Source: Rhodospirillaceae bacterium (GTDB lineage Bacteria > Pseudomonadota > Alphaproteobacteria > GCA-2731375). Taken from it: DNA of 64,000 nucleotides. The position numbers and the translations under genes were made by a program. Each line of letters opens with the position of its first letter. Positions within the stretch are counted from its first letter, which is position 1. Shown one piece after another: positions 6,623-62,789 of the stretch. The DNA lies in assembly GCA_018660265.1 (NCBI GenBank), contig JABJKS010000011.1, forward strand, positions 1 to 64,000. Reading direction: 5' to 3'. The notes under the pieces were generated by a model, which did no database searches, was not told the origin of the DNA, and saw only the letters and a program-made list of their open reading frames with translations.

Positions 6623-6626
6623 GCCC

Positions 6627-7250: not shown

Positions 7251-7253
7251 TTT

Positions 7254-7891
<638 letters not shown>

Positions 7892-7892
<1 letters not shown>

Positions 7893-8911
7893 CAGGCGGC
7901 TGCCTCGTCTACATCCCTATCAAGATGCTCATGTTCGCGACGGTATTGGCGACCCAAATGGCCCGGGCCCTGTGGGGCCAGGTCAACCAGACGAAGGTTA
8001 AAGGTCAGCGCATCGGTCGGACAGATTGCAATGCAGGCAGCACAATTGGTGCATTCCTGGCCGAAGCCGTCATGCCAGGGGTCCAGTTCAAATTCGCAGA
8101 CCGCATTGCATTTCTGACAATCGTTGCAGGTTTGCACTTGCCGTTGGATACGCACCAGGCGATAGCGGCCCAGCAATGAATAAAGGGCCCCGCCCGGACA
8201 AAGATATCGGCAAAAACCACGGCGGGAAACGAAGAAGTCAAACAGCAGGGTGGCGGCGAAAAACACCATGCCGACGCCGAAGCCACCCTGGGCAATGGCA
8301 TAGTACAGCTCGCGCCCGATGATGGCTGGGGGATAGATGGCGGCGACCATGATAGATCCGCTCAAAATCGACAAACCCAAGCCCACGGCCAGGACGACGT
8401 ATTTGATGCGGCGGTCAAATCGGCGCATACCGGTTTTCAATCCGATTAATTGTAACCAGGCCGCAAGATTGGAGTTGAGCTCGTACAGAAAATTGGCCGG
8501 GCAGATCCAGCCGCAAAATATCCGCCCGAAAAACGCGGTAACAACAATGGGTATCAATGCGGTCAGCAGGAACGGCCAATACAAGGTCATGCCGGCTGCC
8601 GCCTGACCCACCGCCGCCAGGGGGTCCGACAGCTTCAGGCCCCAAAAATTACCCGACCAGGTGTTGCCCTTCACGGCATCAAGGTCCGTTGCCGGGTCAT
8701 TGGTCAGCGGCGATGTCAGGGCTTCCATGACATCGTAGAACTGTTTCTCGGACGGTGCGATCAGATCATAGGCGTGGGCTGCCACATAGGTTTGATAGAC
8801 GTGCAGACAAGGCAGGGCAATCAACATGGCAAAGACCAGGCTAAGGCTTAACCAACGCAACTTGTTTAAATGCCGGGATATGCTGAAGGACCGTTGTGGC
8901 GTCATGCTCAA
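7892..8911 (-). CDS. napH: NapH-like membrane ferredoxin-type quinol dehydrogenase
   Basis: 339 residues with about five membrane helices and the NapH/NosR-type cytoplasmic motifs FCGWICPANFLYE and CRYLCPGGALYS, followed by two C-terminal ferredoxin groups (CNDCQKCNAVCEFELDP and CTNCAACIAICPTDAL). In Nap systems NapH with NapG takes electrons from the quinol pool. A periplasmic loop of about 90 residues after the first helix is longer than in textbook NapH. It overlaps the upstream napG-like gene by four bases and the downstream napG-like gene by one base, so the three are probably one translation unit. Confidence 0.85.
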
Positions 8912-9495
8912 CCCCGATCCGGTATAATGCGGATAGCCTGGGGCATCTGGATACAGGAACGTTCACACAGGCCGCAACCAACGCATTTGTCGGTAACGTG
9001 GGGTTGTTCCAGGCGGGCCACATAGATGGCCACATCGGGCAGCGGGCAGGCCCGGTAACAGACGCCGCAGGTTTTGCCCTGAAAAGACAGGCACAGGTTT
9101 TCGTCCACCACCGCATGGCCCATATGGACGTCTTCCAGTATCGCCTCGGCCTCGCGGGGGATTGGCTTGATCGCCCCGGTGGGGCAGACATCGCCGCATT
9201 TCATACAAAGGATGCAGCTTTTTTCCCGGGGGATGATGTAGGGGGTATCAATGGCCTCGGTACCATTTTCAATGCCGAAGTACTTGATGCACCGGTTCGG
9301 GCAGATCTCCCCACATTGGCCGCAGTGAATGCAACGGCTCAGGAATTCCGCCTCCGGCAAGGCCCCGGGGGGACGCAGATAACGCAGCGGTGAAGAAGAT
9401 GCCGCCCCGGCGGTTGACACATTGCCAGCCGCCATGGCGACCAGGGCACCTAAGGTGCCGGTCCCCATCTTCCCCATGAATGTTCGCCGCCGCAT
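8908..9495 (-). CDS. napG: NapG-like ferredoxin-type protein
   Basis: 195 residues. Tat-like start MRRRTFMGKMGTGTLGALVA followed by a hydrophobic core, then LRPPGALPEAEFLSRC and four cysteine groups (CIHCGQCGEICPNRC, CILCMKCGDVCPTGA, CGVCYRACP, CVGCGLCERSC). Order and spacing match NapG, the periplasmic four-cluster protein that works with NapH in quinol oxidation. The gene lies between the molybdoenzyme gene (45-base gap) and the NapH-like gene (four-base overlap). Having a second NapG-like paralogue two genes downstream is unusual. Confidence 0.88.
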   Translation of the reverse strand: MRRRTFMGKMGTGTLGALVAMAAGNVSTAGAASSSPLRYLRPPGALPEAEFLSRCIHCGQCGEICPNRCIKYFGIENGTEAIDTPYIIPREKSCILCMKCGDVCPTGAIKPIPREAEAILEDVHMGHAVVDENLCLSFQGKTCGVCYRACPLPDVAIYVARLEQPHVTDKCVGCGLCERSCIQMPQAIRIIPDRG

Positions 9496-9540
9496 GACCC
9501 GCGACCTATTCCCCTATAATCCGACCCGTGGCCTAGGCCA

Positions 9541-12249
9541 CTAAATTTTTTCAATCCGTGCCGCGCACTTCTTGAAATCGACCTGCCCCGACACCGGATC
9601 CCAAACCCGGGAGGTGATGCCGTTGGCCAGCCATTTGTTCTTCTTCGGATCCGCACTATCAGCCACGGATAGATTCCACGGGCCGAACATATAGCCCCGT
9701 GGCACAGAGTTACGGGCCGGTTTGACCAAAGAATTGGTGCCGACCTGGGCCCGTGCCTCTAACGAGCCGCGCCGGGTAACGACGCGGACCATATCGCCAT
9801 CCTTGATGCCCAGATCCTTGGCGTCATCGTCGTGCATTTCCACATACATCTCGGGCACCAGACGCCGTGTCGTGGGGCTGCGGTTGGACTTGGCGGTGTG
9901 GAAATGTTCATAAACCACGCCCAGGCCCATCCAATAGGGATATTTATCCTCGGGCACTTTGTCCCAGGTCATACCGCGAAAATCCTCGTCCGGAATATCC
10001 GGCGTCAGACCCTTGTCCCGGGCCTCCACGATCAGGTCCATATTATCGATGGTGTAGTGGTCGTCTTTGCCCTTGGCACCGAACTCCATCAATTTCCTGG
10101 TCAGTTCCTCCCGGCCTTTATAGTCCTGCAGGCACAGCTTCATGTGTACCTTGCCGTCCTTGGTCCGGAAATAGCCGTAGGGCCGGTTTTCCCAGGCCCC
10201 TTCCTGGGACATAAAGCGGCGCTTGGTGCCGCCCCGTTGGGCAATTTCATAGGTCGGTGCGGGCCATTGGATGCCGCGCAGTTCCGCCAATTGCTCATAA
10301 GGCGTCATCTTGTCCAGTTTCTCGACTTCAAGAATACCGGTCAGATCCGTATCCGTCCCGGCAGAGGCCTTGATGATATCCCGGAAGATTTCCTCGGCAC
10401 TGTAAAAACCATCGTCCTTGCGCTCATAGGGCAAAGCTTTTTTCATATCCAGCCCCAGAAGAGTGCCGATTTCCTTCGCCTTGTCGATCACCATGTCCAG
10501 GTCAGGCAGGCAGCCCTTTGGCGGTTCAGCCGCTTTTTGGCAAATATTGATGCGCCGCTCTGAACTGATGTAGACGCCCTCAACCTCACCCCAGGTGGCG
10601 GCGGGGAAGATCACGTCGGCATACAGATTGTTGGGCGCATGGCGATAGATTTCCTGCACCACATTGAAAGTTTTCGATAATGCCGGTCGGACCAGATTGT
10701 GCACATCGGGCAGATCGATATGGGTGGCATAGACCAGGAACATGGCCTTCACCTCCCCCTTCAGGGCCCGTTCCATCATACCAACTGCATAGCCTGGGTT
10801 TTTTGCCTTCATGGCGTTGATCAGGTTCTGCTCGGGCACCCCCCAATGTTTCGCCATATGCTTGCGATGGGAGGCGTTTTTGAGGGGCTGGTTAAACGGT
10901 AAACGTCCCGTCAGCCCGCCCGTGAACCGCTCCCCCATGGCGTTCGGTTGTCCGGTCATGGAGAACGGGCCGCAACCTGGCTTGGCCAGGTTACCGGTCA
11001 GGGTCAGCAGATTAATGATCGAGATAACGTTGTGCTGGCCGTGCATGTGTTGGTTATAGCCGATGCCCCACATGATGATGACGCCGCCATAGCCGCCGCC
11101 GTCATGCTTGCCCTTGCCCCGCGCCAGGCGTTTGCGGGTGGCGTCCGCGAACATGCCCGCCACTTTGCGGATCAATGCGGGTGAGACGTCATGGTTGGGT
11201 CCGCCCATGCGGTCCTGAACCTGTTCCGGGCTGTAATCAGCCAGAACACCATCGACATATTCTTTCCAACCAGCGGCGTGTTCCTTCACGAAATCCCAAT
11301 CGATCACGTCCTTATGTTCGTTCAACAGGACATGGGCGATGGCATTCAGGAAGCTGATATCACCATTCAGGATCGGTACGTGGACCGAATTGTCGGGGTT
11401 GATATCTTCATAGCCCATGGCGGTGCCGGTGTGGCGGGGGTCCACAACGACGGTGGGTATATCTTTCTTGCGTTTGTGATCAGCGGCACGCCAGAAAATG
11501 ATCGGGTGGGATTCCCGCGCGTTATGGCCGAAATGCATGATCATGTCCGCCATCTCAATATCTTCATAGGCCAATGGCGGGGTATCAGACCCCAAAGTGG
11601 CGAAATAGCCCGTCACCGCAGAGGTCATGCACATCCGCGCGTTGGCCTCAATCGTGTTGGAGCCCAAGACACCTTTAAGGAATAAATTCTCCAGATACTG
11701 GCCTTCCATGGTCAGCTGGCCGGAACCATAAAGCGCTACGGAATTGCCGGTGTATTTCTTGGCGAAATGGGCAACTTTGTGGGCCACCATTTCAGAGGCA
11801 TCGTGATAAGGCACGCGGGTGAAATGCTCCTCATCGAAGGAGCCCTTGGTCTTGGAGGTAAATTCCATGTCGCCATGGCCGGGCTTGTTCCATTCCGCCC
11901 AGACATCCTTGCGGACATAGCTGTCACCTTCCATGCGGTCCACGTACATAGGCTCGGCCGCAGTCAGGCCTTTGATACATTGCAGGCCAAAATTGGTCGG
12001 ATGGTCCTTGTCCGGGCGCATGGAGACGATTTTGCCCTTTTCCACCTGGATGATGGTGCCGCAGCCAACGCCGCAATAGGGGCATTGGGCGAGCGCCGTC
12101 GTCCGCTCATCCTCATTTGGCGTCTCGGCGGCGGAAACCAGTTCCGGATTGGCCCCAACCATCAGCCCGGCAGAGGCTGCCGATCCGGTTACGAAGCTGG
12201 AGTTTTTCAGAAAGTTGCGACGGCTCATAGCATTCTTGAAGCGTTTCAT
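9541..12249 (-). CDS. NapA-like periplasmic molybdoenzyme (probable nitrate reductase)
   Basis: 902 residues, longer than typical NapA (about 830). A Tat signal (SRRNFLKNSSF) precedes an N-terminal [4Fe-4S] site, Cys56, Cys59, Cys63 and Cys91 (CPYCGVGCG...QC). The molybdenum ligand is predicted to be Cys207 in NARMCMTSAVTG, after an insertion of some 25-30 residues. The middle carries GIGYNQHMHGQHN, LTGNLAKPGCGPFSMTGQP and AMGERFTGGLTGRLP, then ADVIFPAATWGEVEG and SERR, all close to NapA and NasA. A GGAGAAAAG ribosome-binding site precedes the ATG. Nitrate as substrate is the best guess, but the divergence and non-standard partners leave other oxyanions open. Confidence 0.8.
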   Translation of the reverse strand: MKRFKNAMSRRNFLKNSSFVTGSAASAGLMVGANPELVSAAETPNEDERTTALAQCPYCGVGCGTIIQVEKGKIVSMRPDKDHPTNFGLQCIKGLTAAEPMYVDRMEGDSYVRKDVWAEWNKPGHGDMEFTSKTKGSFDEEHFTRVPYHDASEMVAHKVAHFAKKYTGNSVALYGSGQLTMEGQYLENLFLKGVLGSNTIEANARMCMTSAVTGYFATLGSDTPPLAYEDIEMADMIMHFGHNARESHPIIFWRAADHKRKKDIPTVVVDPRHTGTAMGYEDINPDNSVHVPILNGDISFLNAIAHVLLNEHKDVIDWDFVKEHAAGWKEYVDGVLADYSPEQVQDRMGGPNHDVSPALIRKVAGMFADATRKRLARGKGKHDGGGYGGVIIMWGIGYNQHMHGQHNVISIINLLTLTGNLAKPGCGPFSMTGQPNAMGERFTGGLTGRLPFNQPLKNASHRKHMAKHWGVPEQNLINAMKAKNPGYAVGMMERALKGEVKAMFLVYATHIDLPDVHNLVRPALSKTFNVVQEIYRHAPNNLYADVIFPAATWGEVEGVYISSERRINICQKAAEPPKGCLPDLDMVIDKAKEIGTLLGLDMKKALPYERKDDGFYSAEEIFRDIIKASAGTDTDLTGILEVEKLDKMTPYEQLAELRGIQWPAPTYEIAQRGGTKRRFMSQEGAWENRPYGYFRTKDGKVHMKLCLQDYKGREELTRKLMEFGAKGKDDHYTIDNMDLIVEARDKGLTPDIPDEDFRGMTWDKVPEDKYPYWMGLGVVYEHFHTAKSNRSPTTRRLVPEMYVEMHDDDAKDLGIKDGDMVRVVTRRGSLEARAQVGTNSLVKPARNSVPRGYMFGPWNLSVADSADPKKNKWLANGITSRVWDPVSGQVDFKKCAARIEKI

Positions 12250-12276
12250 AATTCTTTTCTCCGGTCTCTATCGGCT

Positions 12277-12963
12277 CTATTCGTCGGATTTTGTCTTGGC
12301 CAATTGGCGCAGATAGACAATGACATCGTCAATTTCCTGATCGTTCAGATCGGCCAGCGCGGCGGGCCCCTGGAACGCCAGCATGCGTGTGTTGGAGCGG
12401 CCTTTCTTGATGGTTTCGCGCAGGAAGCCATCGGAGACTTTGTTCAAAAAGCCCGGCAGGCCGATCGCCGTGCCGGTGCCGCCCGCTTCATAGCCGTCAC
12501 CAGCGACGCCGTGACAGGTGGAGCAGATGTTGTCGTACCATTGTTGGCCCAGGCGTGGGTCGCCATGAGCGTCTGCCTGGCTGTCAACTTCAGCGGCCAT
12601 ATTCGGTCCAACCGCATGAGACCGCAAAAAGGCGACAATGGCGCGAATATTGCCGCGGCCCAGATGCGCGAAAGGTGGCATGCCGGTGTCTTCCCGGCCA
12701 TCGCGAATGGTGCCGGCGAAATACTTATCAGAGGCCAGGGCAAGCAATTCCGGATTGGTAAGCGAGGGCGCGACGCCCGGTTCGCCAATAGCATCCGCCC
12801 GATGGCAGACTTCACAATTCTCTGCAAAGAGCGCCTTGCCTTTTTTCAAAGCAGCCGGCGTGGACCCGGCAGCGAATGCGCTTGAAGAAACCGCCAGAAA
12901 TGCCAATCCCGCCAATCCGGCAATTCCGGATAATCTAGCGAGAATTTTCAGACTTTTGACCAT
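12277..12963 (-). CDS. diheme class I cytochrome c of the nap-like cluster
   Basis: 228 residues with a Sec signal (AFLAVSSSAFA) and two CXXCH sites, Cys50-His54 (CEVCHRADA) and Cys147-His151 (CSTCHGVAGDG), each opening a mono-heme class I domain. Met95 in TGMPPF is a likely axial ligand of the first heme. It resembles cytochrome c4/c553-type electron carriers and not NapB. The start at 12963 is chosen because AAGGAGAT lies seven bases before it, and an ATG 15 bases upstream has none. It sits between the NapC-like and NapA-like genes, where it probably replaces NapB as electron donor to the catalytic subunit. Confidence 0.87.
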   Translation of the reverse strand: MVKSLKILARLSGIAGLAGLAFLAVSSSAFAAGSTPAALKKGKALFAENCEVCHRADAIGEPGVAPSLTNPELLALASDKYFAGTIRDGREDTGMPPFAHLGRGNIRAIVAFLRSHAVGPNMAAEVDSQADAHGDPRLGQQWYDNICSTCHGVAGDGYEAGGTGTAIGLPGFLNKVSDGFLRETIKKGRSNTRMLAFQGPAALADLNDQEIDDVIVYLRQLAKTKSDE

Positions 12964-13029
12964 GTTGATCTCCTTCATTGTTTGAAAGCAAGTTACGTCC
13001 TGTTTCTCTTGTTCAGCAATGCGACATAT

Positions 13030-44786: not shown

Positions 44787-46052
44787 TCAGATATCCATGA
44801 TCTTGCGATAGGCTTTCCAGAAGCCCCGGATCGAGGTTTCCGTGGCCCGGCTTTCCTGGGATGCCGCGCCATCGCCGCCCATCTTCACGACGGATGTCTC
44901 ACCCCCCGTGCCCGGCAATGCGCGCTGGATCATGGCACCGACGGCACCGTCCTCCATGGAAATATAGCCGGCTGGGCCAATAAAGTTGGCTTGCAACAGA
45001 CGCAGATCCGCCAGTTCGTCGTCGTCATCTTCGAAACCATAGTTGGTCCAGACAATATCCGTGCGATCCACGCCACGGGGTACGATCTGACGCACCACCA
45101 ACGAATTGCGCACCTGTTGCAGGACAAGGCCGGGGAAGACGGTAAGAATTTGTAGGGTGATGCCGTCGTCAAATTCATCCCGGCCGCCCAGCAATGCCGG
45201 TGCCTTCAACCCGAACTCATCCGTATCCGCGCGCAGCTTGGCGTTGTCGTAATCGCCATCGCCACTATCGTCCTTGGGGTTATTGGCGGTCTTATCCAGC
45301 ATGGAATAGCTGACATGATGGCCGCCGCTTTCATCCACAATGATGCCGCCCTTTTGCGACAGGCGGTTGAGGCGGAAGGTGGTAAAGAACAGATGCAGGA
45401 TCGATGCATGATAAGGGTCTTTGACGTTCTCGAAATATAGTTTCCAATTATTGCGCATGGTTTGGGTGTAGTACCCCAGCACCTTCAAGGGCCTGGGCAG
45501 GACGCGATGGATGCGCGACACAATATCGGGGCCCAGATAATCCTCCAGGGGCGGGACCTTTGCATCGAAGCTGCCGAATACCAGGCCGGCCAGCGTGGCG
45601 ATGTACAGGCGTTGCAGGCCATGCTCTTCGCGCTTGAAATCATCGGGCATGCCGCCTTCACCGTTGACCCCGTTCTGGAAGGCGACGCCCGTTAGGTCGC
45701 CGTCTTCATTGTAAGACCAGGCGTGATAGACACAGGTAAAAGCCCGCGCATTGCCAAATCGTTCCAGGCACAACAGGGCCCCGCGATGGGCGCAACGGTT
45801 TTCAAACCCCTTGAGGCTGCCGTCCTTGCCCCGCACCAGCACTACCGGCACATCGCCCACGAATGTGGTTTTGTAGTCACCGGGATTTGGAACCTCGCAT
45901 TCAAGTCCCAGAACATTCCAGGTCGGTCCCATGAACAGGCGTTCCCGTTCCCGTTGGTAAATCTCGTCGTCGTCGTACAGGCTATAGGGCACTTCCGTCA
46001 GGCCATCATTGGGCCAGAACGTTGTAGCCTTATAAGTCGATGCTTTCGTCAT
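44787..46052 (-). CDS. aromatic-ring-hydroxylating dioxygenase alpha subunit
   Basis: 421 residues. The Rieske cluster motif is CAHRGALLC and CVYHAWSYNEDG, and the catalytic iron site is in NVKDPYHASILHLFFTTF with the histidine pair. The region after the iron site has acidic insertions (NPKDDSGDGDYDN and EDDDDELAD) that are not common in the family. It probably hydroxylates an aromatic or benzoate-like substrate together with the beta subunit directly downstream. Its start overlaps the stop of a GFA gene by four bases, tying the oxygenase to the zinc proteins and LLM enzyme upstream. Confidence 0.93.
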   Translation of the reverse strand: MTKASTYKATTFWPNDGLTEVPYSLYDDDEIYQRERERLFMGPTWNVLGLECEVPNPGDYKTTFVGDVPVVLVRGKDGSLKGFENRCAHRGALLCLERFGNARAFTCVYHAWSYNEDGDLTGVAFQNGVNGEGGMPDDFKREEHGLQRLYIATLAGLVFGSFDAKVPPLEDYLGPDIVSRIHRVLPRPLKVLGYYTQTMRNNWKLYFENVKDPYHASILHLFFTTFRLNRLSQKGGIIVDESGGHHVSYSMLDKTANNPKDDSGDGDYDNAKLRADTDEFGLKAPALLGGRDEFDDGITLQILTVFPGLVLQQVRNSLVVRQIVPRGVDRTDIVWTNYGFEDDDDELADLRLLQANFIGPAGYISMEDGAVGAMIQRALPGTGGETSVVKMGGDGAASQESRATETSIRGFWKAYRKIMDI

Positions 46053-52523: not shown

Positions 52524-52916
52524 CTAAGCAGCCGGATCTATATATGCGGTCACTTCCACCTCGACATCAATGGCCGGGTCGAAGAAACCACTGACGCCGA
52601 CAAACGACAATCCTGGGCGAATTTCGCTGAACACCTCCGCATGGGCCTTGGCCGCCTCGGCCCAGCGCTTTGTGTCCAGCATCATGATGTTGGTTTTGAT
52701 CACGTCATCGAAGGAGGCCCCGGCCTCTTCCAGCGCTTCGCCCACGATGCGCAGCGACAGCTGGGTTTGCAGGTACACATCACCCGCATGCAGGATCGTG
52801 CCGTCCGGTGCCGAGGGTGAGGTCAAACCGATTTCGATCATGTTGCCAACCCGGACAGCGCGGGAATAGCCGGCGATCATTTCCCAGGGACGGCCGCTTG
52901 AGATGAGTTTGCGCAT
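52524..52916 (-). CDS. RidA family (YjgF/UK114) protein
   Basis: 130 residues from the ATG at 52916, which follows GGAGA; an earlier start would lie in the divergent promoter. Landmarks are [39 protein letters not shown] and the C-terminal [19 protein letters not shown]. RidA hydrolyses reactive imines or enamines released by PLP enzymes. It is divergent from an amino-acid-type ABC importer, with 126 bases between the two starts, and may act on the imported compound. Confidence 0.9.
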
Positions 52917-53041
52917 AAGTTTCTCCGATGAGGTATTGCAATTCAAACTATCCCACTACCATTGGCGAAACAAATATTCTAGGCTGTCGCGCAAGATCAA
53001 CCGCCCGAAACGGGCAAAATTGGAAAGCAGGGGAGAAGCCA

Positions 53042-53866
53042 ATGTCCTTCAAACGAAATGTTCTCGGCGTTATTGCCGCGATAGCGATTGCCTTCGGGGT
53101 CGCTGGCACCGCTGGGCAGGCCATGGCGGCAAGCGTGGTCGACGATATTCTAAAGCGGGGGAAAATTGTTGTCGGCCTGTCGACATTTGTGCCCTGGGCC
53201 ATGCGGGACCGGAATGGCGAAGTCATCGGCTTTGAAGTTGATGTCATCAATAAATTGGCCAAGGACATGGGCGTTAAGGTCGAATTGGTGCCGACGGCAT
53301 TTGACGGCATTATCCCGGCCCTGCTGGCGAAAAAATTCGATGTCATCATCACCGGTATGGTGATCAAGCCAAAGCGGAACCTGACGGTCAACTTTTCCCA
53401 CCCCTACGCATATCTGACGGTCGGCATGGCAGCCAACAAGAAGATGGCCGCGAAAGACGGCCTGAAAACCAAGGAAGATTGGAACAGCCGCAGCGTTACC
53501 CTGACCATCAAGCGTGGCACCGCGCCGGGTGAAACCGCGCGCCGGAACTTCCCCAAGGCCCGCGTTCGTCAGTTCGATGATGACGCCCAGGCCCTGCAGG
53601 ACGTGCTGAACGGCAACGCGCACGCCTTCCTGACGTCAGAGCCGAAGCCGACCCATTATGTGCTCGACAACCCGGATGTCCTCTACCATCCCTTTGGCCG
53701 GGGGCCGTTCGATCCCTCCGCCTCCGCCTTCGCTGTGCGTAAGGGTGATCCGGATGCGCTGAACTTCTTCAACAATTGGATCCTTTATCACGAGCTGAAT
53801 GGCTGGTTGAAGGAAACACACGACAAGTGGTTCAAGGGTCGGGATTGGAAGTCCCGGCTTAAATAG
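53042..53866 (+). CDS. polar amino-acid-type ABC transporter substrate-binding protein
   Basis: 274 residues with a Sec signal (VIAAIAIAFGVAGTAGQAMA) and the SBP_bac_3 fold: GKIVVGLSTFVPWAMRDRNG, GFEVDVINKLAKDMGVKV, FDGIIPALLAKKFDVIITGM and the lobe-crossing TIKRGTAPGE. The family binds histidine, glutamine, arginine, opines and similar compounds. AGGGGAGA precedes the ATG at 53042; a longer frame starts inside the divergent promoter. A strong hairpin follows the stop, then two permeases and an ATPase. Confidence 0.93.
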   Translation: MSFKRNVLGVIAAIAIAFGVAGTAGQAMAASVVDDILKRGKIVVGLSTFVPWAMRDRNGEVIGFEVDVINKLAKDMGVKVELVPTAFDGIIPALLAKKFDVIITGMVIKPKRNLTVNFSHPYAYLTVGMAANKKMAAKDGLKTKEDWNSRSVTLTIKRGTAPGETARRNFPKARVRQFDDDAQALQDVLNGNAHAFLTSEPKPTHYVLDNPDVLYHPFGRGPFDPSASAFAVRKGDPDALNFFNNWILYHELNGWLKETHDKWFKGRDWKSRLK

Positions 53867-53877
53867 GTCCGCGTCCA

Positions 53878-53913
53878 CCGCAAGACGCGATGCAGATCCA
53901 TCGCGTCTTGCGG
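53878..53913 (+). promoter_or_regulatory. 15-bp perfect stem-loop between binding-protein and permease genes
   Basis: CCGCAAGACGCGATG pairs with CATCGCGTCTTGCGG around CAGATC. In ABC importer operons such hairpins stabilise the binding-protein mRNA or cause partial termination, so that this subunit is made in excess. There is no T run after it, which favours mRNA stabilisation. Confidence 0.7.
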
Positions 53914-53957
53914 CTCGCGTTTGACAATATGATCACGGTTATGATCCCGGCTCGCCG

Positions 53958-54797
53958 ATGACGCTTCGTGACGCTGAAGCGGCTTTGCCGCCCCCGGACG
54001 GCGGGCGGCGGATACAGTGGTGGAATTCCAAGCCCTTTGATATCGTCCAGTTCGTGCTGTTGTCCGGCCTGTTGGCCTGGCTGGTCTGGCGCGGTGCCGA
54101 GACCATGGACTACCGCTGGCAGTGGCATCGCCTGCCGCAATATTTCTATGAAGTCATTGATGGTGAATTGCTGTGGGGCCCGCTGATATACGGCCTTATG
54201 GTGACCATCGAAATCGCCGCCTGGGGCATGTTGCTGGCCATGATCATCGGCCTGGTCACGGCTGTATTGCGCCTTTCGGGGTCTTTTGCGGGCCGCATCG
54301 TCGCAACCGTATATCTTGAAATTATCCGCAACACGCCTTTGCTGGTGCAGGTTTCCATCTTCTATTTCGTGCTGCAACCGATCCTGGGCATTAACAATCC
54401 AATCTGGACCGGCATTCTGTGCCTGGCCTTTTTTGAAGGCACCTTCGCCTCGGAAATTATCCGGGCCGGCATCAACTCCGTGCCAAAGGGACAGTGGGAG
54501 GCCGGCACCAGCATCGGCCTCAGCCGGGCCAAGACCTATATCTATATTATCCTGCCCCAGGCGATCCCGTTGATGCTGCCGCCCATGACCGGGATCCTGG
54601 TCAACCTGATCAAGCATTCGGCGATCCTCAGCTTCATTGCCGTTTTCGAATTGACCACCGAGGCACGCAATCTTATCGGCGATACCTTCATGAGCTTTGA
54701 GGTTTGGTTTGTGGTCGGGCCCATGTATCTGGTTCTGACCATAAGCCTTTCGACACTTGTCGCCTGGATGGAACGCCGCATTCGGCGGCGGCGGTGA
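53958..54797 (+). CDS. amino-acid-type ABC transporter permease 1
   Basis: 279 residues of the HisM/GlnP family. A first helix (FDIVQFVLLSGLLAWLVW) is followed by the binding-protein-dependent transport domain from about residue 75, with the EAA loop EAGTSIGLSRAKTYIYIILPQAIPLMLP that contacts the ATPase. The protein makes a heterodimeric channel with the next permease. It starts 45 bases after the hairpin and five bases before the second permease. Confidence 0.92.
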   Translation: MTLRDAEAALPPPDGGRRIQWWNSKPFDIVQFVLLSGLLAWLVWRGAETMDYRWQWHRLPQYFYEVIDGELLWGPLIYGLMVTIEIAAWGMLLAMIIGLVTAVLRLSGSFAGRIVATVYLEIIRNTPLLVQVSIFYFVLQPILGINNPIWTGILCLAFFEGTFASEIIRAGINSVPKGQWEAGTSIGLSRAKTYIYIILPQAIPLMLPPMTGILVNLIKHSAILSFIAVFELTTEARNLIGDTFMSFEVWFVVGPMYLVLTISLSTLVAWMERRIRRRR

Positions 54798-54802
54798 GGC
54801 CG

Positions 54803-55681
54803 ATGCGATTACCACGCCTCACCCTGATCGACCTTGTCATCTTCGCCGCCGTTATCGCAGGGGTGGCCTATGTGGGCTATCGGGTCGAAACAGTCCTGAT
54901 CTATAAATGGGATTGGTCGGTGATCCCGAACTACCTGTTCCGCTGGGATGAGGGGCAGGGTAGTTACGTCCCCAACCTGTTGATCAAAGGGCTGGCGACC
55001 ACCATCCGGATCGCCATCTGGACCATGCTTGTCGCCTCGATCATTGGCATCATCCTGGGCGTTGCCAGAACCTCCAACAGGTTATTTCCCCGTCTGGTCA
55101 GCTGGGCCTATGTGGAGTTCATCCGAAACATACCCCCGGTGCCGTTCCTGTTTCTGTTCTATTTCTTCATTGCCAGCCAGATCATGCCGCTGCTGGGTAT
55201 AGACGAGGCGATCAACGGCGCCTCGCCGGGTACCCTGGCAGTTGCCGAATTCCTTTTCGGGCCGGCCAACCTGATGACCAATTTCGCCGCTGGCGTGATC
55301 AGCCTGTCCATGATGTCGGCGGCCTATATCGCCGAGATTATCCGCGCCGGCATTCAGGCGGTACCCAAGGGCCAGCGTGAGGCGGGCCAAAGTATCGGCC
55401 TCTCCCGCCTCGCTTTAATGCGCTATGTGGTGCTACCTCAGGCCATCGCCCGTGTGGTGCCGCCTCTGGCCGGGCAGTTTATCACCCTGATCAAGGATTC
55501 TTCCCTGGTCGCGCTGATATCGATCCAGGAGCTTTCGTTCATGGCTATGGAGATCGCCATATCAGAGCAGCGTTTCTTTGAGGTTTGGATCGTCACGGGG
55601 GCGATGTATTTTGTCGTGTGCTATGCCTGCGCCCTGATGTTTGGGCAACTGGAACGCCGTATCGGCGTGCATATGCGTTGA
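54803..55681 (+). CDS. amino-acid-type ABC transporter permease 2
   Basis: 292 residues from the ATG at 54803 (a longer frame overlaps the first permease gene). Helix 1 is [19 protein letters not shown], and the EAA loop is [28 protein letters not shown]. Sequence likeness to permease 1 around this loop shows they form the two halves of the channel. It has a longer periplasmic loop after helix 1 and an insertion near [19 protein letters not shown]. It is followed by the ATPase after 16 bases. Confidence 0.92.
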
Positions 55682-55697
55682 GTGGAAGGGACGTAGC

Positions 55698-56486
55698 ATG
55701 AGCAGTAAGACCGGCAAAGCAGCCAGGGATGCAGCCACCGACATAGATGGCGATCCCGTCATCGTCATGGCCGGCGTCAACAAATGGTTTGACGATTTCC
55801 ATGTCCTCAAGGACGTGGATTTTTCCGTCAGGCGGGGGGAGCGGGTGGTTATTTGCGGCCCCTCGGGCTCTGGCAAATCCACCTTGATCCGTTGCATAAA
55901 TCGCCTGGAGGATCATCAGGCAGGCCGCATTGTTTTCAACGGTGTTGAATTGGGGGAAGAGAACCGGCAGACAGCGGAAATCCGGGCCGAGGTCGGCATG
56001 GTCTTTCAGCAGTTCAATCTGTTCCCCCATTTGACGGTGCTGGAAAACTGCACCCTGGGGCCTATGAAAGTGCGCGGTGCCAGCCGGGCCGAGGCCAACC
56101 AGCTGGCCATGGAATATCTGGAGAAAGTGCATATCCCCGAACAGGGCGAAAAATATCCCAGCCAGCTATCTGGCGGTCAGCAACAGCGCGCGGCCATCGC
56201 GCGGTCGTTGTGTATGCGGCCCGAGGTGATGTTGTTCGACGAACCCACATCGTCCCTGGATCCGGAGATGATCAAGGAAGTGCTGGACGTGATGATAGAT
56301 CTGGCGGAGACAGGCATGACGATGATTTGCGTCACCCACGAAATGGGCTTTGCCCGCACGGTCGCGGACAAGATGATTTTCATGGATGAAGGCCGGATCA
56401 TCGAGGAAGGCCCGCCGGAAGAATTCTTCGCCAATACTCAGAATGAGCGGACCAAGCTGTTCTTGGGTCAGATTTTGTCCCATTAG
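55698..56486 (+). CDS. amino-acid-type ABC transporter ATP-binding protein
   Basis: 262 residues. Walker [15 protein letters not shown]-loop [17 protein letters not shown], signature [15 protein letters not shown], Walker [16 protein letters not shown] and H-loop [12 protein letters not shown] are all present. An N-terminal extension of about 25 residues precedes the usual start. GGAAGGGACG precedes the ATG at 55698. It energises the importer encoded with it. It is the last gene of the operon and convergent with the HD-domain gene. Confidence 0.94.
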
Positions 56487-56537: not shown

Positions 56538-57176
56538 TTACTTCGGGATTGGTATATCGTTTCGGGGCGTTGCGAACAGGCGTTCGACCATGGGGGCGAA
56601 GGTTTTAAGGCGCGCGTTTTCCATTGCCGGGTTGATCGAGGGAACGTCGTATTTAGCGACCCAATTGGCGGTATATTCAAAGTCCGGATGGCCGCGCCAG
56701 CGCTCACGGATATTGGGGTCCACGTCCGGGTGGGTGGCGCAATGCAGGGCCTGGAAATACATATGCCGCTCCAACATCCAAACGTTCCGGTCCGAGACAT
56801 AGGGTGCCAGGAAGCTGGCGGCGAACTGTCCATGGTTCTCGTTGTTGGTGACAAAGCCAAGGTCGTGGAACAGGGCGACGACGATATCTTCCTCCCCCCC
56901 GCCGTCCTGCAGCACCAGGGTGGCGGTCTGCAGGCAATGTTCATAATTGTTGATCTGATAACCGAAGGTCGGCGCATTCGCTTGTGCGGCCAACATCTCC
57001 AACGCCTGTTTGGCCCGTTGCGCCGCACTGTAAGGGCCACGCTGACTGTCCAGCAGGGCCCAATCCCGGGCCGCGAAATCATCCAGGCTGACGGGTACCG
57101 CATAGGACCAATCGTTCTTCATTAACCGGCTTTTTTCGCCTGCGGCGCGGTGCTTGGGCAATGGTTCAATCTGCAT
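56538..57176 (-). CDS. PhnZ-like HD-domain protein (possible mixed-valent di-iron oxygenase)
   Basis: 212 residues from the ATG at 57176. HD-domain metal ligands are His80 (NNYEHCLQTA), His104-Asp105 (VALFHDLGF), His115 (NENHGQFAASFL), His138 (LERHMYFQAL) and Asp177 (WVAKYDVPS). These match in order the six iron ligands of PhnZ, and HPDFEYTANWV resembles the C-terminal DPLFE block of that enzyme. PhnZ and TmpB cleave a C-P bond oxidatively after a 2OG oxygenase step. The Tyr/Glu substrate residues of PhnZ are not kept, so another substrate is likely. The start overlaps the stop of the 2OG oxygenase gene, and ATG codons at 57182 and 57122 are alternatives. Confidence 0.7.
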   Translation of the reverse strand: MQIEPLPKHRAAGEKSRLMKNDWSYAVPVSLDDFAARDWALLDSQRGPYSAAQRAKQALEMLAAQANAPTFGYQINNYEHCLQTATLVLQDGGGEEDIVVALFHDLGFVTNNENHGQFAASFLAPYVSDRNVWMLERHMYFQALHCATHPDVDPNIRERWRGHPDFEYTANWVAKYDVPSINPAMENARLKTFAPMVERLFATPRNDIPIPK

Positions 57177-58143
57177 CTTCATTCCGATAGGCGAAGGATT
57201 TTTGATAAATGCCATAGATATATTCGGCGCAGCCAATGGCTGCGTGATGCGCGGTCCCGCCTGGCGCGGGCACGGGATCGATCACCGTATCCCAGTTCGG
57301 GTCGACAAAAACCGGAACGGAAAACCGCTCGCCCGGCGAGGCGTTGATGACCCGGTGCGGGTTGGATATGAAGCGGTCATTGCTCCACCGATGCAACAGA
57401 TCCCCCACATTGACCACAAAAGTCCCGGGCATGGGATGGGCGGTCAACCAATCACCGTTTCGGTCCATCACCTGCAGGCCCCCGACGGCATCCTGATACA
57501 AAATAGTAATGCAACCATAATCCGTGTGGGGCGAGACGCCGAACTGACTTTCGCCCATGTCCTCGGGCTGTGGTGGATAATAGACGACCGCCGCGCGGGT
57601 TAGCGGTTTATCAAAATGCCGGACGAAATAATCGTGCGGCAGATCCAGCCCGGCGGCAAAAGCGCGCAACAGGGATATCCCCAGGCCGTTGATGGTTCTG
57701 ATATAATCATCCAGGGCCTCGCGAAGTTCCGGCAAGATATCGGGCCAGCGGTTCGGTGCCAGGATGCGGTTGCTGCTTTCGATGTCGGGATCGCCGGGGT
57801 CTACCTCCCAGCCCCAAATGAAACTTTCCTTGTTATCCGGTTTGCTGGCGCCTGACATGGTCGCCTCACCAATGGGCAGGAAGCCACGGTGATAATCGGC
57901 CACGCGCACGGTTTCTTTCTGTGCGCGGTCCATATGGAAAAATTGTGCGCCGGTTTCAATGGCACGGTCGATTTTCTGTTGCGGGACGCCATGGTTTTTC
58001 ACATAGAAAAACCCAATGCGCTGAACGGTGTCGCGCAGTTGCCGGCCGACGAAACGTTCCCCAGCCGCGCCATCGGACAGCGGCGACAGATCAATCACCG
58101 GGATCGCATCGATATCAATATGTTTTACCTCTGCGTAGGCCAC
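57166..58143 (-). CDS. 2-oxoglutarate/Fe(II) oxygenase, isopenicillin-N-synthase-like
   Basis: 325 residues. The DIOX_N domain begins IPVIDLSPLSDG, with IGFFYVKNHGVPQQKID. The iron site is His-x-Asp in VSPHTDYGCITILYQD and the distal histidine in ISNPHRVINASPGERFS, which also supplies the Arg-x-Ser that holds 2OG. Such enzymes hydroxylate small molecules. The HD-domain gene overlaps its 3' end, which strongly suggests consecutive steps on one substrate. It follows the AhpD-like gene by 16 bases. Confidence 0.9.
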   Translation of the reverse strand: MAYAEVKHIDIDAIPVIDLSPLSDGAAGERFVGRQLRDTVQRIGFFYVKNHGVPQQKIDRAIETGAQFFHMDRAQKETVRVADYHRGFLPIGEATMSGASKPDNKESFIWGWEVDPGDPDIESSNRILAPNRWPDILPELREALDDYIRTINGLGISLLRAFAAGLDLPHDYFVRHFDKPLTRAAVVYYPPQPEDMGESQFGVSPHTDYGCITILYQDAVGGLQVMDRNGDWLTAHPMPGTFVVNVGDLLHRWSNDRFISNPHRVINASPGERFSVPVFVDPNWDTVIDPVPAPGGTAHHAAIGCAEYIYGIYQKSFAYRNEDAD

Positions 58144-58159: not shown

Positions 58160-58741
58160 TTACGATTTTTCCTGATAATACCCGATCACGTCGCCTTCTG
58201 TCGTGACGCCAAGGCCATTTAGCAAACGGTTGGAATAATTGAAATAGGCACAGACCTGATTGACTTCCAATATCTCCCCATCGTCACAGCCCGCTTGATG
58301 CAAAACGTCGATATCAGATTTTGTCATTCTGCCGACATCCCGGGTCAACTTGGCCGCATAGCGCAGCAAGGCCAGCTCCTTGCCCGCGAACACATCTTCG
58401 GGACGCCCGGCTTTCAAGGCCACAAAGACCGCATCGGCGCGGGCCTCATCATCCATCAACCGGCGCGCATTGGCGAAATGATGGGTCAGGCTGTATTCGC
58501 AGTCGTTTACAATAGAGGTGTAAGAGGCGACGGCTTCCAAAAACACAAAGGGCAGAACATTGTCCGGGTTATGCAGGACGCTGCGGTACAGGACCACATG
58601 GCCTTCCATTGTGTGGGGCCGCAAGGAATGGGCCCGCATGACGTTATCAACGGTACCGCTGGGGGTTGTCACCATTTCATAGAACTCGGTCAGCGGGCCT
58701 TCGGCGGCCTCGGGCGGGATCATCTTTATCCAGGCCGACAT
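58160..58741 (-). CDS. AhpD/carboxymuconolactone-decarboxylase-like protein with CxxS
   Basis: 193 residues of the peroxidase-related, AhpD-like fold: YRSVLHNPDNVLP, FLEAVASYTSIVNDCEYSLT then HHFANA, and the C-terminal VCAYFNYSNRLLNGLGV. The family's redox motif CxxCxxxH (often CEYCxxHH) is CEYSLTHH here, so the second cysteine has become serine and peroxidase cycling by the AhpD mechanism is not possible as such. Redox-free members act as decarboxylases or isomerases. It lies in a minus-strand run before the 2OG oxygenase gene. Confidence 0.8.
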   Translation of the reverse strand: MSAWIKMIPPEAAEGPLTEFYEMVTTPSGTVDNVMRAHSLRPHTMEGHVVLYRSVLHNPDNVLPFVFLEAVASYTSIVNDCEYSLTHHFANARRLMDDEARADAVFVALKAGRPEDVFAGKELALLRYAAKLTRDVGRMTKSDIDVLHQAGCDDGEILEVNQVCAYFNYSNRLLNGLGVTTEGDVIGYYQEKS

Positions 58742-58841: not shown

Positions 58842-59615
58842 TTAGCGCATGGCAACGGGCATGCCGCCGTCAACGGTCATGACCTGGCCTGATATGGAGG
58901 TGGAGGCAACGAACGTGAGAACTTGCGCTGCGACGTCTTCGATCTGGCCGACCCGGCCCAGCACCGCTTCCTGCCTGATAAGTTGCGCCATATCGTCGGG
59001 CACGCGCTGGGCCATCCGGGTGTCTTCTACAAGACCCGGGGCGACGCAATTGACGGCGACGTCCGGGGCCATGGCGACGGCAAGGCAGTGTGTCAGATGA
59101 ATAAGGCCGGCCTTGCTGGCGGCATAGGCAATGCTGCTGCCACCCGGTGCGATACCGGCTGCGGAGGCGATATTCACAATGTGGCCTATACGCCCGGCCT
59201 CGTTGGATTTCAGCATTGTCGCGAAAGCACGGGCCAACAGATATGGGCCGCGCAGATTGGTTTCCGAAACCTGATCCCAGATCTCCCCGTTCAGGGCCTC
59301 AAGATCAGGAAAAGCAATACCGATGTTCCAGGCCGCATTGTTGACCAGAATATCCAGAGCCCCCATGCCATCTGCCATTTTTTGCACACAGGCATCGATG
59401 GACGCAGGGTCGCGCTGATCCAGCTGGATCGCGATGCCTTTGCGGCCATGGCCGGCAACCGCTTCCAGCGTGGCGTCCGCGCCGGCGGTATGGCCCATAT
59501 AGGTGATCGCGACATCGGCCCCGGCGCTGGCCAGCAAGGTGGCAATGCCACTACCAATATCACCCGACCCGCCCGTCACCAAAGCCGTACGACCCAACAG
59601 AGGCTGCGTGTTCAT
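58842..59615 (-). CDS. SDR family oxidoreductase
   Basis: 257 residues of the classical short-chain dehydrogenase family: nucleotide motif TGGSGDIGSGIA, NNAAWNIG, and the catalytic Ser-Tyr-Lys in IASAAGIAPGGSSIAYAASKAG. The C-terminus keeps the family's VNCVAPGLVEDTRMA. It oxidises or reduces a hydroxyl or keto group with NAD(P)(H). It lies about 50 bases after the TauD-like gene and 100 bases before the AhpD-like gene, probably in one transcript. Confidence 0.92.
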   Translation of the reverse strand: MNTQPLLGRTALVTGGSGDIGSGIATLLASAGADVAITYMGHTAGADATLEAVAGHGRKGIAIQLDQRDPASIDACVQKMADGMGALDILVNNAAWNIGIAFPDLEALNGEIWDQVSETNLRGPYLLARAFATMLKSNEAGRIGHIVNIASAAGIAPGGSSIAYAASKAGLIHLTHCLAVAMAPDVAVNCVAPGLVEDTRMAQRVPDDMAQLIRQEAVLGRVGQIEDVAAQVLTFVASTSISGQVMTVDGGMPVAMR

Positions 59616-59666: not shown

Positions 59667-60542
59667 TTAGGCTGTGGGCCTGTCTCCTGCCACCGTGGTG
59701 CGGCGCATGACCCGGCGGTATTTGTTGTCGAAAGGGCGGCCCCTGTGCAGGGTGGCGCGGTCATCCCAGATGACCAGGTCGCCGGGCTGCCAGTCATGGT
59801 GATACAACAGGCTGTCCTGGGTGGCCTGGGCGCGCAGTTCCTCCAACAGGGCATCGCTGTCGGCTTTGTTCAGGCCAACAATGCTGGCAACATGGGCCCC
59901 TGCGTAGAGCGCCTTGCGTCCCGTGCGGGGGTTGGTCTGTACCAGTGCCTGGGGCACGGGGGGCACCTCGGCCTTTTCCGCAGCCAGGAACTTGTCTTCA
60001 GCATCATAACCCATGGCGGCCCTGGAATGGGCCAGGCTGTGCATCCCGACCATGCCGTCAATCCGGGCCTGGGTTTCCGCCGACAAGCCATCCCAGGCAG
60101 CGCGCTGATCGGCAAATTCCGTGGCGCCGTCCTCTGGCGGCACTTCCCTGGCGTGAAGCAGGGAGACCAAGGCAGGAATGGCCTTGAACGAGCTGTCTGC
60201 ATGCCACAACTGATTACCCAGATTGTAGGACATATGCTCCCCGTCGATGGGATAGATGGAACCGTCCGGGGCGACATTTGTGATGTCGGAGATTTCATCG
60301 TGGGCCACGGCCCGGGCGCGGTGGCGGCGGATGGATACCTCCAGCTCCCCAAAATGGCGGGAAAAGGCGATTTGGGCCTCCTCATCCAGATCCTGATCAT
60401 GAAACACCAGTACGCCGTATTGGTCCAAGCCGTCCCGGATAGGCAGGAATGTCGCTTCATCCATGGGCTGGCTTAGATCAACACCGCCGACGTCCGCCGC
60501 GAACCCGGCCTCGGTGTTGAGGGTGCTAAAGGTGATGCTCAT
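59667..60542 (-). CDS. TauD/TfdA-family 2OG/Fe(II) dioxygenase
   Basis: 291 residues. The iron ligands are in LWHADSSFKAIPALVSLL (His-x-Asp) and LVIWDDRATLHRGRPFD (distal His), with RRVMRRTTV giving the 2OG arginine. The family oxidises taurine, 2,4-D, alkyl sulfates and many other compounds. The operon thus holds two 2OG oxygenases of different families, which suggests successive oxidations of one substrate. It starts 36 bases after the carboxyltransferase gene. Confidence 0.92.
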   Translation of the reverse strand: MSITFSTLNTEAGFAADVGGVDLSQPMDEATFLPIRDGLDQYGVLVFHDQDLDEEAQIAFSRHFGELEVSIRRHRARAVAHDEISDITNVAPDGSIYPIDGEHMSYNLGNQLWHADSSFKAIPALVSLLHAREVPPEDGATEFADQRAAWDGLSAETQARIDGMVGMHSLAHSRAAMGYDAEDKFLAAEKAEVPPVPQALVQTNPRTGRKALYAGAHVASIVGLNKADSDALLEELRAQATQDSLLYHHDWQPGDLVIWDDRATLHRGRPFDNKYRRVMRRTTVAGDRPTA

Positions 60543-60578: not shown

Positions 60579-62084
60579 CTACCAGGCGTCAATGGCGTGC
60601 TTGCGATGGCTGCGGGCGAGGGGTGTGGGCATGGCCTTTAGGGTCTGGCTCAAAAAATGCCTGGTATCCGCCGGGTCGATTATATCATCAATTTCGAATT
60701 TTTCCGCAACCGCGATGCCTGTGTTCTGGCGTTTCAGTTCGGCCGTGGCACGGGCGTGGATGTCGGCGCGCGTCGCCTCGTCCGGCGCGGCGGCCAGTTC
60801 TTTGCCGTGAATGATATTCACCGCTCCCTCCAAGCCCATGCCGCCGAACTCCGCCGTGGGCCAGCCGACACAAAGGGCAGGGTCCAGGCCACGGGCCCCC
60901 ATGACATAGCCGCCCAAGCCATAGGCCTTGCGTAGAACAATGGTCATGAAAGGCACGGTGGCCGCCGATACGTTCAACAACAAGCGCCCGGAATGGCGCA
61001 CCAGGGCCGTCTTCTCAATCTCCGGCCCGACCATCAGGCCCGGCGTGTCGCACAGGAATAACATGGGTATGTCGTAAGCATCGCACAGCTGAATAAAGCG
61101 GGAGGCTTTGTCGGAAGCCGGGCTGTCGATGGCGCCGGCCAGGAACATGGGCTGATTGGCAATGACGCCGACCGGGCGACCTTCGATACGGATCAGGGAG
61201 GTGACGATTGCGCGCCCGAACTTGGCGCGTAGTTCCAACACCGAGTCGATATCGGCAATACCTTCAATGACCTTGCGCACGTTATAGGCCCGGCGCGGGT
61301 TATCGGGGATGATCTCTCGCAACGCCTCCAGATCAGGCGCCTGATAGGTATCTGAGGGGCCGCGGAAATAGCTGAGATATTTTTTCGCCAGCTCAATCGC
61401 CTCGCCCTGATCCTTGGCCAGAATATCGATCACGCCATTAGGCTCCTGAACCTCTACCGGGCCGATTTCTTCCGGCGTGAAGGTCTCGCCCAACGCCGCC
61501 TCCACCAAAGGCGGGCCGGCCATGCCGATGTTGGCTTTCGGCGTAGCGATCAGAACATCGCACATGCCGGCCAGATTGGCATTGCCCGCAAAACACCGCC
61601 CCGCCACGATGCCAACCACGGGTGCGTTGCCCGACAGCTTTGCAAAGGCCATGAAAGTGGTCAGGTCCAGTCCCAGGCCGGTACCTGCGGACAGGTCATG
61701 GGGCCGGGCACCGCCGCCCTCCAGCCAGCAGATCATGGGCAGGCGCAATTTTTCCGCCACCTCAAATATCCGGTCATGTTTCTTATGATTGATCAGACTT
61801 TGGGTGCCGGCGTAGACCGTATAGTCGTAGGCCATGATGGCGCAGGATTGTCCGTCAACTTCCCCCGTCCCGGTGACCAGGCCGTCGGCGGCACCTGACA
61901 TATCGTTGCGTACAGGGCGGGAAAGGCCGCCATATTCGGCGAAACTGCCTGGGTCCAGAAAGGCGTCAATCTGCTCCCGCGTGGTCCAATGGCCGGTCTT
62001 GCGCCGCTTTGCAACTGCTTCGGGGCGGGCGGCGTCCAGGTTGCCCGCATGCAGCGCACGGATAGTCTCTACGTCTTTACGCAT
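60579..62084 (-). CDS. acyl-CoA carboxylase carboxyltransferase subunit
   Basis: 501 residues of the biotin-dependent carboxyltransferase family (propionyl-CoA carboxylase beta, methylcrotonoyl-CoA carboxylase, geranyl-CoA carboxylase). Landmarks are FAEYGGLSRPVRN, VMAYDYTVYAGTQSLINHKK-like segment (here MAYDYTVYAGTQSLINHKKH), LPMICWLEGGGARPHD and VLRKAYGLGGYVMGARG with the oxyanion residues. A biotin carboxylase or biotin carrier is not visible in the window, so it must pair with a distant gene. It is probably part of the run that includes the EthD gene upstream. Confidence 0.88.
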   Translation of the reverse strand: MRKDVETIRALHAGNLDAARPEAVAKRRKTGHWTTREQIDAFLDPGSFAEYGGLSRPVRNDMSGAADGLVTGTGEVDGQSCAIMAYDYTVYAGTQSLINHKKHDRIFEVAEKLRLPMICWLEGGGARPHDLSAGTGLGLDLTTFMAFAKLSGNAPVVGIVAGRCFAGNANLAGMCDVLIATPKANIGMAGPPLVEAALGETFTPEEIGPVEVQEPNGVIDILAKDQGEAIELAKKYLSYFRGPSDTYQAPDLEALREIIPDNPRRAYNVRKVIEGIADIDSVLELRAKFGRAIVTSLIRIEGRPVGVIANQPMFLAGAIDSPASDKASRFIQLCDAYDIPMLFLCDTPGLMVGPEIEKTALVRHSGRLLLNVSAATVPFMTIVLRKAYGLGGYVMGARGLDPALCVGWPTAEFGGMGLEGAVNIIHGKELAAAPDEATRADIHARATAELKRQNTGIAVAEKFEIDDIIDPADTRHFLSQTLKAMPTPLARSHRKHAIDAW

Positions 62085-62114: not shown

Positions 62115-62789
62115 CTACGCGATAATCACGTGTTCTTTGCTGATGATGAAGTCGATCTCATTCTCGGTATTGAGGAATTTCGGCTCGTCTTCCCGGGCGC
62201 GATCATAGGCGGCGGACTGTGCCGATTGACGCATGGCGGCGATGTCGTCGAACCAGGTGATGGCACAGCCGTCCCAGGCCGGTACCTTACCGTCCCGATA
62301 ACCGCCCAACAACGTATGGCTTTGCACATAGCGGCGGATAACCTCGATCTCCGCTGCGATGGGACCATGCACATCCCGCCAATAGGTCTGAAAGGCTTCA
62401 ACCTCCATGTCGGCCTTGCGCGGTACGAATTCGATATTCTTCAGGGCGCCGTCGGGCACGGCACCGTCTTTGATAATGTGTTCCTGGGTCAGGATCAGGG
62501 CCATTTTGGCCCGGTCGATGAAGTTTTCTTCGTCTGTCTGCACCGCGCCATAGGCCGCTGTTCCCGCCATGGCCCGCAGTGCCGCAACGTCATCAACCCA
62601 GATCTCGGCAATGCCATCATAAATCAATTCGCCCTTACGATAGCCTCCCAGCAATGCATGGGACTGGATATAGCGGCGCAGGCCAGGCAGGCGTTTGACC
62701 ACCTTCGCGTGGTCCGTCCGCCAATAGGTCTGAAAATCTTCCACGGACATGCCGGACTTCCGCTTGATGCAGGTGATGGCCTTAATCAT
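62115..62789 (-). CDS. tandem EthD-domain protein
   Basis: 224 residues made of two EthD/ABM-type ferredoxin-like domains, residues about 1-110 and 115-220. The two halves share the blocks FQTYWR, GLRRYIQSHALLGGYRKGE/IRRYVQSHTLLGGYRDGK (positions about 36-54 and 148-165) and W-DDxAA, so the gene arose by internal duplication. EthD proteins accompany ether- or steroid-degrading enzymes and may be decarboxylases or dehydratases. A good ribosome-binding site (GGAGAG) precedes the ATG. It appears to be the first gene of the minus-strand catabolic run. Confidence 0.87.
   Translation of the reverse strand: MIKAITCIKRKSGMSVEDFQTYWRTDHAKVVKRLPGLRRYIQSHALLGGYRKGELIYDGIAEIWVDDVAALRAMAGTAAYGAVQTDEENFIDRAKMALILTQEHIIKDGAVPDGALKNIEFVPRKADMEVEAFQTYWRDVHGPIAAEIEVIRRYVQSHTLLGGYRDGKVPAWDGCAITWFDDIAAMRQSAQSAAYDRAREDEPKFLNTENEIDFIISKEHVIIA

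Follow-up and report, generated by a model that had tools for sequence, protein, structure and literature searches.

What reaction is carried out by two overlapping genes, one for an Fe(II)/2-oxoglutarate (2OG) oxygenase and one for an HD-domain protein, in the 64,000-nucleotide stretch of alphaproteobacterial DNA analysed here (hereafter the window)? The earlier note on this DNA had likened the pair to the PhnY/PhnZ and TmpA/TmpB tandems of phosphonate oxidation, with a new substrate and with an amino-acid-type importer facing the pair. The listing of open reading frames places both genes where that note had them, on the minus strand: the 2OG gene at 57166-58143, ending with the stop codon TGA at 57168-57166, and the HD gene running from 56538 to 57182 or 57176, both of which are ATG start candidates. 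The overlap described earlier, 57166-57176, is obtained with the second ATG (11 bp; 17 bp with the first), and L006, L007 and L008, which are close relatives, overlap by the same 11 bp when read from the second start. The two genes are the last of seven tightly spaced minus-strand genes extending from 62789 down to 56538, an apparent operon which encodes, in order, an EthD repeat protein (62115-62789), a carboxyltransferase (60579-62084), a TauD-family 2OG oxygenase (59667-60542), an SDR dehydrogenase (58842-59615), a CMD/AhpD-like 'peroxidase-related' protein (CMD; 58160-58741), the 2OG oxygenase and the HD protein. The importer is indeed present and is convergent on the pair: a plus-strand operon (52928-56486) encodes a complete set of the polar-amino-acid type (PAAT), with an SBP_bac_3 periplasmic amino-acid-type binding protein (SBP; 52928-53866), two ABC permeases (53958-54797 and 54704-55681) and an ABC ATPase (55641-56486). 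A minus-strand gene for a RidA-like protein (52524-52946) adjoins the importer, as it also does in L006 and L009. Elsewhere in the window, open reading frames judged by eye include one resembling a histidine N-alpha-methyltransferase of the EgtD type (3958-4926, minus strand) and what appears to be a nap cluster for a periplasmic nitrate reductase (5981-12978, minus strand).

A review (PMC8177086) names only three HD-domain oxygenases, MIOX, PhnZ and TmpB, two of them acting on phosphonates. At its default threshold, Pfam returns nothing for the HD protein of the window, whose only significant matches in a single-sequence search of the PDB are PhnZ and TmpB, with TmpB the best (E 7e-4). A profile search of the same database returns just these two (E about 1e-8), which are also the best PDB matches of the wider HD family (E about 1e-11). 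When an AF2 model of the protein (pLDDT 78) was compared by Foldseek, all 10 matches at E<=0.001 were PhnZ or TmpB, PhnZ being the best (E 4e-5). Human myo-inositol oxygenase (MIOX), which is alike in HD fold and ligand pattern, follows as the next best match by probability (0.97, above any hydrolase), with an E-value of 0.58 and a TM-score below 0.5; the Pfam MIOX model differs in giving no match to the HD protein at E<=1 and in matching only two of nine relatives, at E 0.028 at best. All six iron ligands of PhnZ have equivalents, as had been read from the sequence, namely H80, H104, D105, H115, H138 and D177 (numbered from the second ATG; positions 82, 106, 107, 117, 140 and 179 of alignment A1). 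They are invariant in the 9 close relatives aligned, where their loss would have counted against the assignment, and in 14/14 members of the cassette clade defined below, while the 56 wider relatives keep all six with the exception of one D to N replacement. The close relatives stem mostly from alphaproteobacterial MAGs, one being labelled SAR324. The structural and profile searches support a protein of the PhnZ/TmpB fold class rather than a recognisable nucleotide hydrolase, and the combination of fold and ligands makes an oxygenase activity probable.

The partner enzyme contains the domains DIOX_N and 2OG-FeII_Oxy and is isopenicillin-N-synthase (IPNS)-like, not PhyH-like, in agreement with the earlier assignment. 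Its HxD...H triad (H206, D208 and H263) and 2OG-binding RxS motif (R273 and S275) are invariant in the eight sequences aligned. The closest solved relatives are 9ovh and 6jyv, the latter a probable iron/ascorbate oxidoreductase, and the names of these entries give no proven substrate that could be transferred. The adjoining CMD protein has a mean column identity of 80% across six cassettes and scores 86.6 bits against TIGR01926 (cut-off 81.8), which places it in the same subfamily as the peroxidase-related/AhpD-like proteins 2oyo and 6k40. The CxxC redox pair of AhpD-like proteins is however not found in the cassette CMD, which reads C81xxS84 in 6/6 cassette members aligned, and since Ser replaces the second Cys in all of them, thiol peroxidase chemistry of the AhpD type is unlikely.

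Neighbourhoods within fetched stretches were compared for the cassette clade (27 loci) and for the wider HD family (53 loci). A 2OG gene is found near HD at 22 loci of the cassette clade, which speaks against the possibility that the pair is rarely co-located, an importer SBP in 21, CMD in 14 and a creatininase-like protein in 13, compared to two, none, none and none of the wider-family loci (Fisher p 7e-13 for 2OG and 3e-14 for SBP, values that ignore the relatedness of the loci). Less frequent in the cassette clade are a HisC-like aminotransferase and SoxA (seven loci each) and RidA and a Rieske oxygenase (five each); the enrichment of SoxA over the wider family, where it occurs at six loci, is not significant (Fisher p 0.12). 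The EthD, carboxyltransferase, TauD and SDR genes of the window are not conserved in other cassettes. Gene order varies between cassettes while the gene set stays, a pattern that descent by itself explains less well than a common function does. Among 385 genomes of the class, seven carry a cassette HD, each of them together with the cassette versions of 2OG (>470 bits) and CMD (>277 bits), and just two further genomes have a 2OG protein above 460 bits; in one order the cassette HD is present in 14 of 23 genomes. Five of the 27 loci lack a nearby 2OG gene, although the contigs of two of them, L010 and L090, are short and end there; at L157 importer, creatininase, GST and RidA are retained on a contig entirely without 2OG. 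An HD gene is present alone at L158 and L159. Participation of HD and 2OG in the same pathway is well supported. The likeness to PhnY/PhnZ and TmpA/TmpB proposed earlier holds for the adjacency and not for a stand-alone tandem, as the pair belongs to a larger cassette with CMD, the importer and often a creatininase-like protein and sarcosine oxidase, and as 2OG, CMD and importer also occur without HD; a strict tandem of the PhnY/PhnZ type is no more than plausible. A second, independent adjacency was seen at L071 (7101-8701, plus strand) and L075 (about 7.7-9.3 kb), where a divergent IPNS-like 2OG protein, scoring about 205 bits against the cassette 2OG profile, lies beside a wider-family HD. 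Tandem duplicate HD genes adjoin GbcA-like Rieske and SDR genes at L070 (8215-9578), L083 (about 3.3-4.8 kb) and L101 (about 2.6-4.2 kb).

The pair is part of a conserved bacterial cassette that probably imports and degrades an amino-acid-like compound, perhaps N-methylated. The reading we favour, to which we give an even chance, is that HD belongs to the di-iron oxygenases of the PhnZ/MIOX fold class and acts in one pathway with the 2OG enzyme, and that this pathway degrades an imported amino-acid-like and probably N-methylated zwitterion. The importer would take up the substrate and the 2OG enzyme would hydroxylate one of its carbons, whereupon a mixed-valent di-iron site in HD would use O2 to cleave the bond adjoining the new hydroxyl (C-C or C-heteroatom) and yield a carboxylate. 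The products would then be processed by CMD and, elsewhere, by creatininase-like, aminotransferase/TPP-decarboxylase and sarcosine-oxidase enzymes. Given the cassettes without HD, the protein may also act later in the pathway or on a side product.

In these HD-less cassettes a protein of about 360 residues commonly takes part. It is present in eight of 11 HD-less genomes with CMD/2OG (one of them, G261, with a weaker match located elsewhere in the genome), in none of 21 HD genomes and in none of 10 other controls. The genes lie at L173 (6476-7558, minus strand), L174 (6407-7492, minus), L175 (11138-12226, plus), L177 (9334-10413, plus) and L181 (6892-8022, minus), and on the plasmids NZ_CP083547, NZ_CP065362 and NZ_CP067131. 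The family shows no Pfam, NCBIfam or PDB match and has a conserved His-rich C-terminus with the motifs SWHAGIHPGC and LHFHTCG; homology to NicX, a 2,5-dihydroxypyridine dioxygenase, was considered and rejected, a profile comparison with annotated orthologues giving a probability of 1.2%. HD-less genomes with the protein carry 2OG, CMD, the importer, creatininase and GST, and CMD, importer, creatininase, GST and the heterotetrameric sarcosine oxidase SoxBDAG are found in both flavours of the cassette. Plasmids from Leisingera, Ruegeria, Paracoccus and Alisedimentitalea carry the protein together with CMD-type proteins and a Rieske oxygenase and variously with the importer, creatininase and SoxBDAG. 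As four annotated plasmid clusters have the Rieske enzyme and no cassette-type 2OG, the 2OG step seems replaceable. From these distributions, related pathways seem to employ either HD or the 360-residue protein. Since the set of 2OG, CMD and importer exists without HD, usually together with the 360-residue protein, the product of the 2OG enzyme is not necessarily what HD acts on directly; the alternation weakens the claim of obligatory direct action and strengthens the notion that HD fills a definite step.

The strongest alternative to the favoured reading builds on this alternation: HD and the 360-residue protein would perform one and the same step by different chemistry, HD being a generic bond-cleaving module, with the hydroxylation entrusted to 2OG, Rieske or PhyH enzymes depending on lineage. 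The mutual exclusion, the components common to both flavours and the Roseobacter plasmids, which pair the protein with Rieske, CMD, importer and SoxBDAG genes, are all in its favour, and we consider it possible, at somewhat below one chance in three. The exclusion could however reflect two related substrates instead of one step, and L170 and L171, both of one genus, combine 2OG, CMD and importer with neither HD nor the 360-residue protein.

Rather doubtful, and slightly less probable again, is that HD is a hydrolase or hydratase, such as a metal-dependent HD hydrolase or a cyanamide-hydratase-like lyase, working on a pathway intermediate or a toxic by-product. This would fit with cassettes that dispense with HD and usually hold an unrelated protein instead, and with the wider family, in which 45 of 56 relatives keep the Arg three positions before the first His (H-3), a phosphohydrolase signature (this residue and the YxxE loop treated below are as defined in PMC8177086), so that a hydrolase role is conceivable for wider-family HD proteins. 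The cassette clade, in contrast, lacks this Arg altogether, having N in 12 and M in two of its 14 members, and no hydrolase is found among the significant Foldseek or profile matches.

Improbable, in turn, is a phosphonate pathway proper, in which the 2OG enzyme would hydroxylate aminoethylphosphonate or an N-methyl form of it and HD would release phosphate together with glycine or betaine. Gene logic and fold are alike: PhnY/PhnZ, which oxidise 2-aminoethylphosphonate, likewise combine genes for a 2OG hydroxylase and an HD di-iron oxygenase with the same ligand set, TmpA/TmpB, which oxidise TMAEP, follow the same logic in a betaine-type context, and the sarcosine oxidase of some cassettes would suit sarcosine or betaine as a product. 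The residues around the substrate differ, however. The YxxE loop is absent in all 14 cassette-clade proteins, which have S, T or G at the position of PhnZ Tyr24 and Y at that of Glu27, as the earlier note had recognised for this Tyr/Glu pair in the window. A Lys four positions after the fourth ligand (H4+4) and an Arg three before the sixth (D6-3), present in every Phn/Tmp row long enough to score, are replaced by Gln in 14/14 and kept in just 2/14, respectively; both presumably take part in phosphonate binding. As residues that every scorable Phn/Tmp row shares are lost here, the new substrate suggested earlier is likely. Against the NCBIfam models Phn-HD, TmpB and PhnZ1 the HD protein also scores far too low to pass (28 bits where 214.6 is needed, and 27 where TmpB requires 300). 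A quick tree with SH-aLRT support, built from 100 sequences, groups 12 of 14 cassette HD proteins in one clade (support 99), with L055 and L056 branching close to it at a position without resolution, and long branches separate the cassette proteins and the wider family from PhnZ/TmpB, with a support of 99 on each side. The PhnZ-like label given earlier is accordingly apt for the fold class and not for membership of the PhnZ/TmpB clade: by sequence and model, the cassette HD protein shares fold and ligands with the HD oxygenases, yet fails to join those two enzymes. Its setting differs as well, with an IPNS-type 2OG partner in place of a PhyH-like one, CMD and a PAAT importer, and no phosphonate or phosphate gene is recognised among the neighbouring genes examined. 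Phosphonates are thus an unlikely substrate.

A merely incidental adjacency, with HD from a general betaine-linked family and 2OG/CMD from another pathway, would account for the 2OG-CMD pairs without HD and for the solitary HD genes of L158 and L159, and is very improbable in view of the co-location (22/27 against 2/53), the 11-bp overlap conserved in four genomes and the retention of the set under varying gene order.

The substrate of the favoured pathway is best approached from the transport and catabolic genes. Since the importer is of the polar-amino-acid type and since N-demethylating enzymes occur in cassettes, we infer an imported amino-acid-like zwitterion, possibly N-methylated, rather than a phosphonate. 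SoxBDAG is present in several cassettes, and a Rieske oxygenase or DAO-type oxidases in some others; within the window, neither sarcosine oxidase nor creatininase lies beside the pair. A Rieske-type oxygenase gene is located about 10 kb beyond the pair (44787-46052, minus strand) and may be the one resembling the Rieske family of other cassettes, as a match to that family of at least 150 bits falls within 40-64 kb of the window. Some wider-family HD genes also have SoxBDAG, a GbdR-type regulator or a GbcA-like Rieske enzyme as neighbours, hinting at a link of the wider family to betaine catabolism: SoxBDAG is near the HD gene at L060, L061, L067, L079, L081 and L082, with a GbdR-like regulator beside some of these and the GbcA-like Rieske gene beside L060. 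Three more specific candidates were set aside. Homarine or trigonelline had been suggested by ring-hydroxylase and GST genes only, and no matching genes are given in two papers which mention homarine, one of them its uptake (PMC12817926, PMC9723723). A sulfonate had been suggested by sulfate permease and TauD neighbours, which are lineage-specific. At L154 (2862-7724, minus strand) the cassette CMD gene is situated between the genes for histidine ammonia-lyase (hutH) and urocanate hydratase (hutU); a histidine-type substrate, considered on this basis, was not generalised beyond the single genus concerned.

In a bolder and rather unlikely version, to be regarded as speculative, the cassette would encode an as yet undescribed pathway degrading an N-methylated zwitterion that is common in the sea, in which the new HD clade cleaves a C-C or C-N bond after hydroxylation in the manner of MIOX, with no phosphonate involved, and in which the 360-residue enzyme performs the same step elsewhere, including in cultured roseobacters. 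If a distinct HD clade combines the same ligands with another substrate pocket, and is set in a conserved cassette for transport and catabolism, the range of reactions known for this cofactor would grow. Such a clade would further suggest that alphaproteobacteria use a nitrogen- or methyl-rich compound which is so far untracked, and the question of the substrate is testable in cultured Leisingera, Ruegeria and Paracoccus, whose plasmids hold the alternative cassettes.
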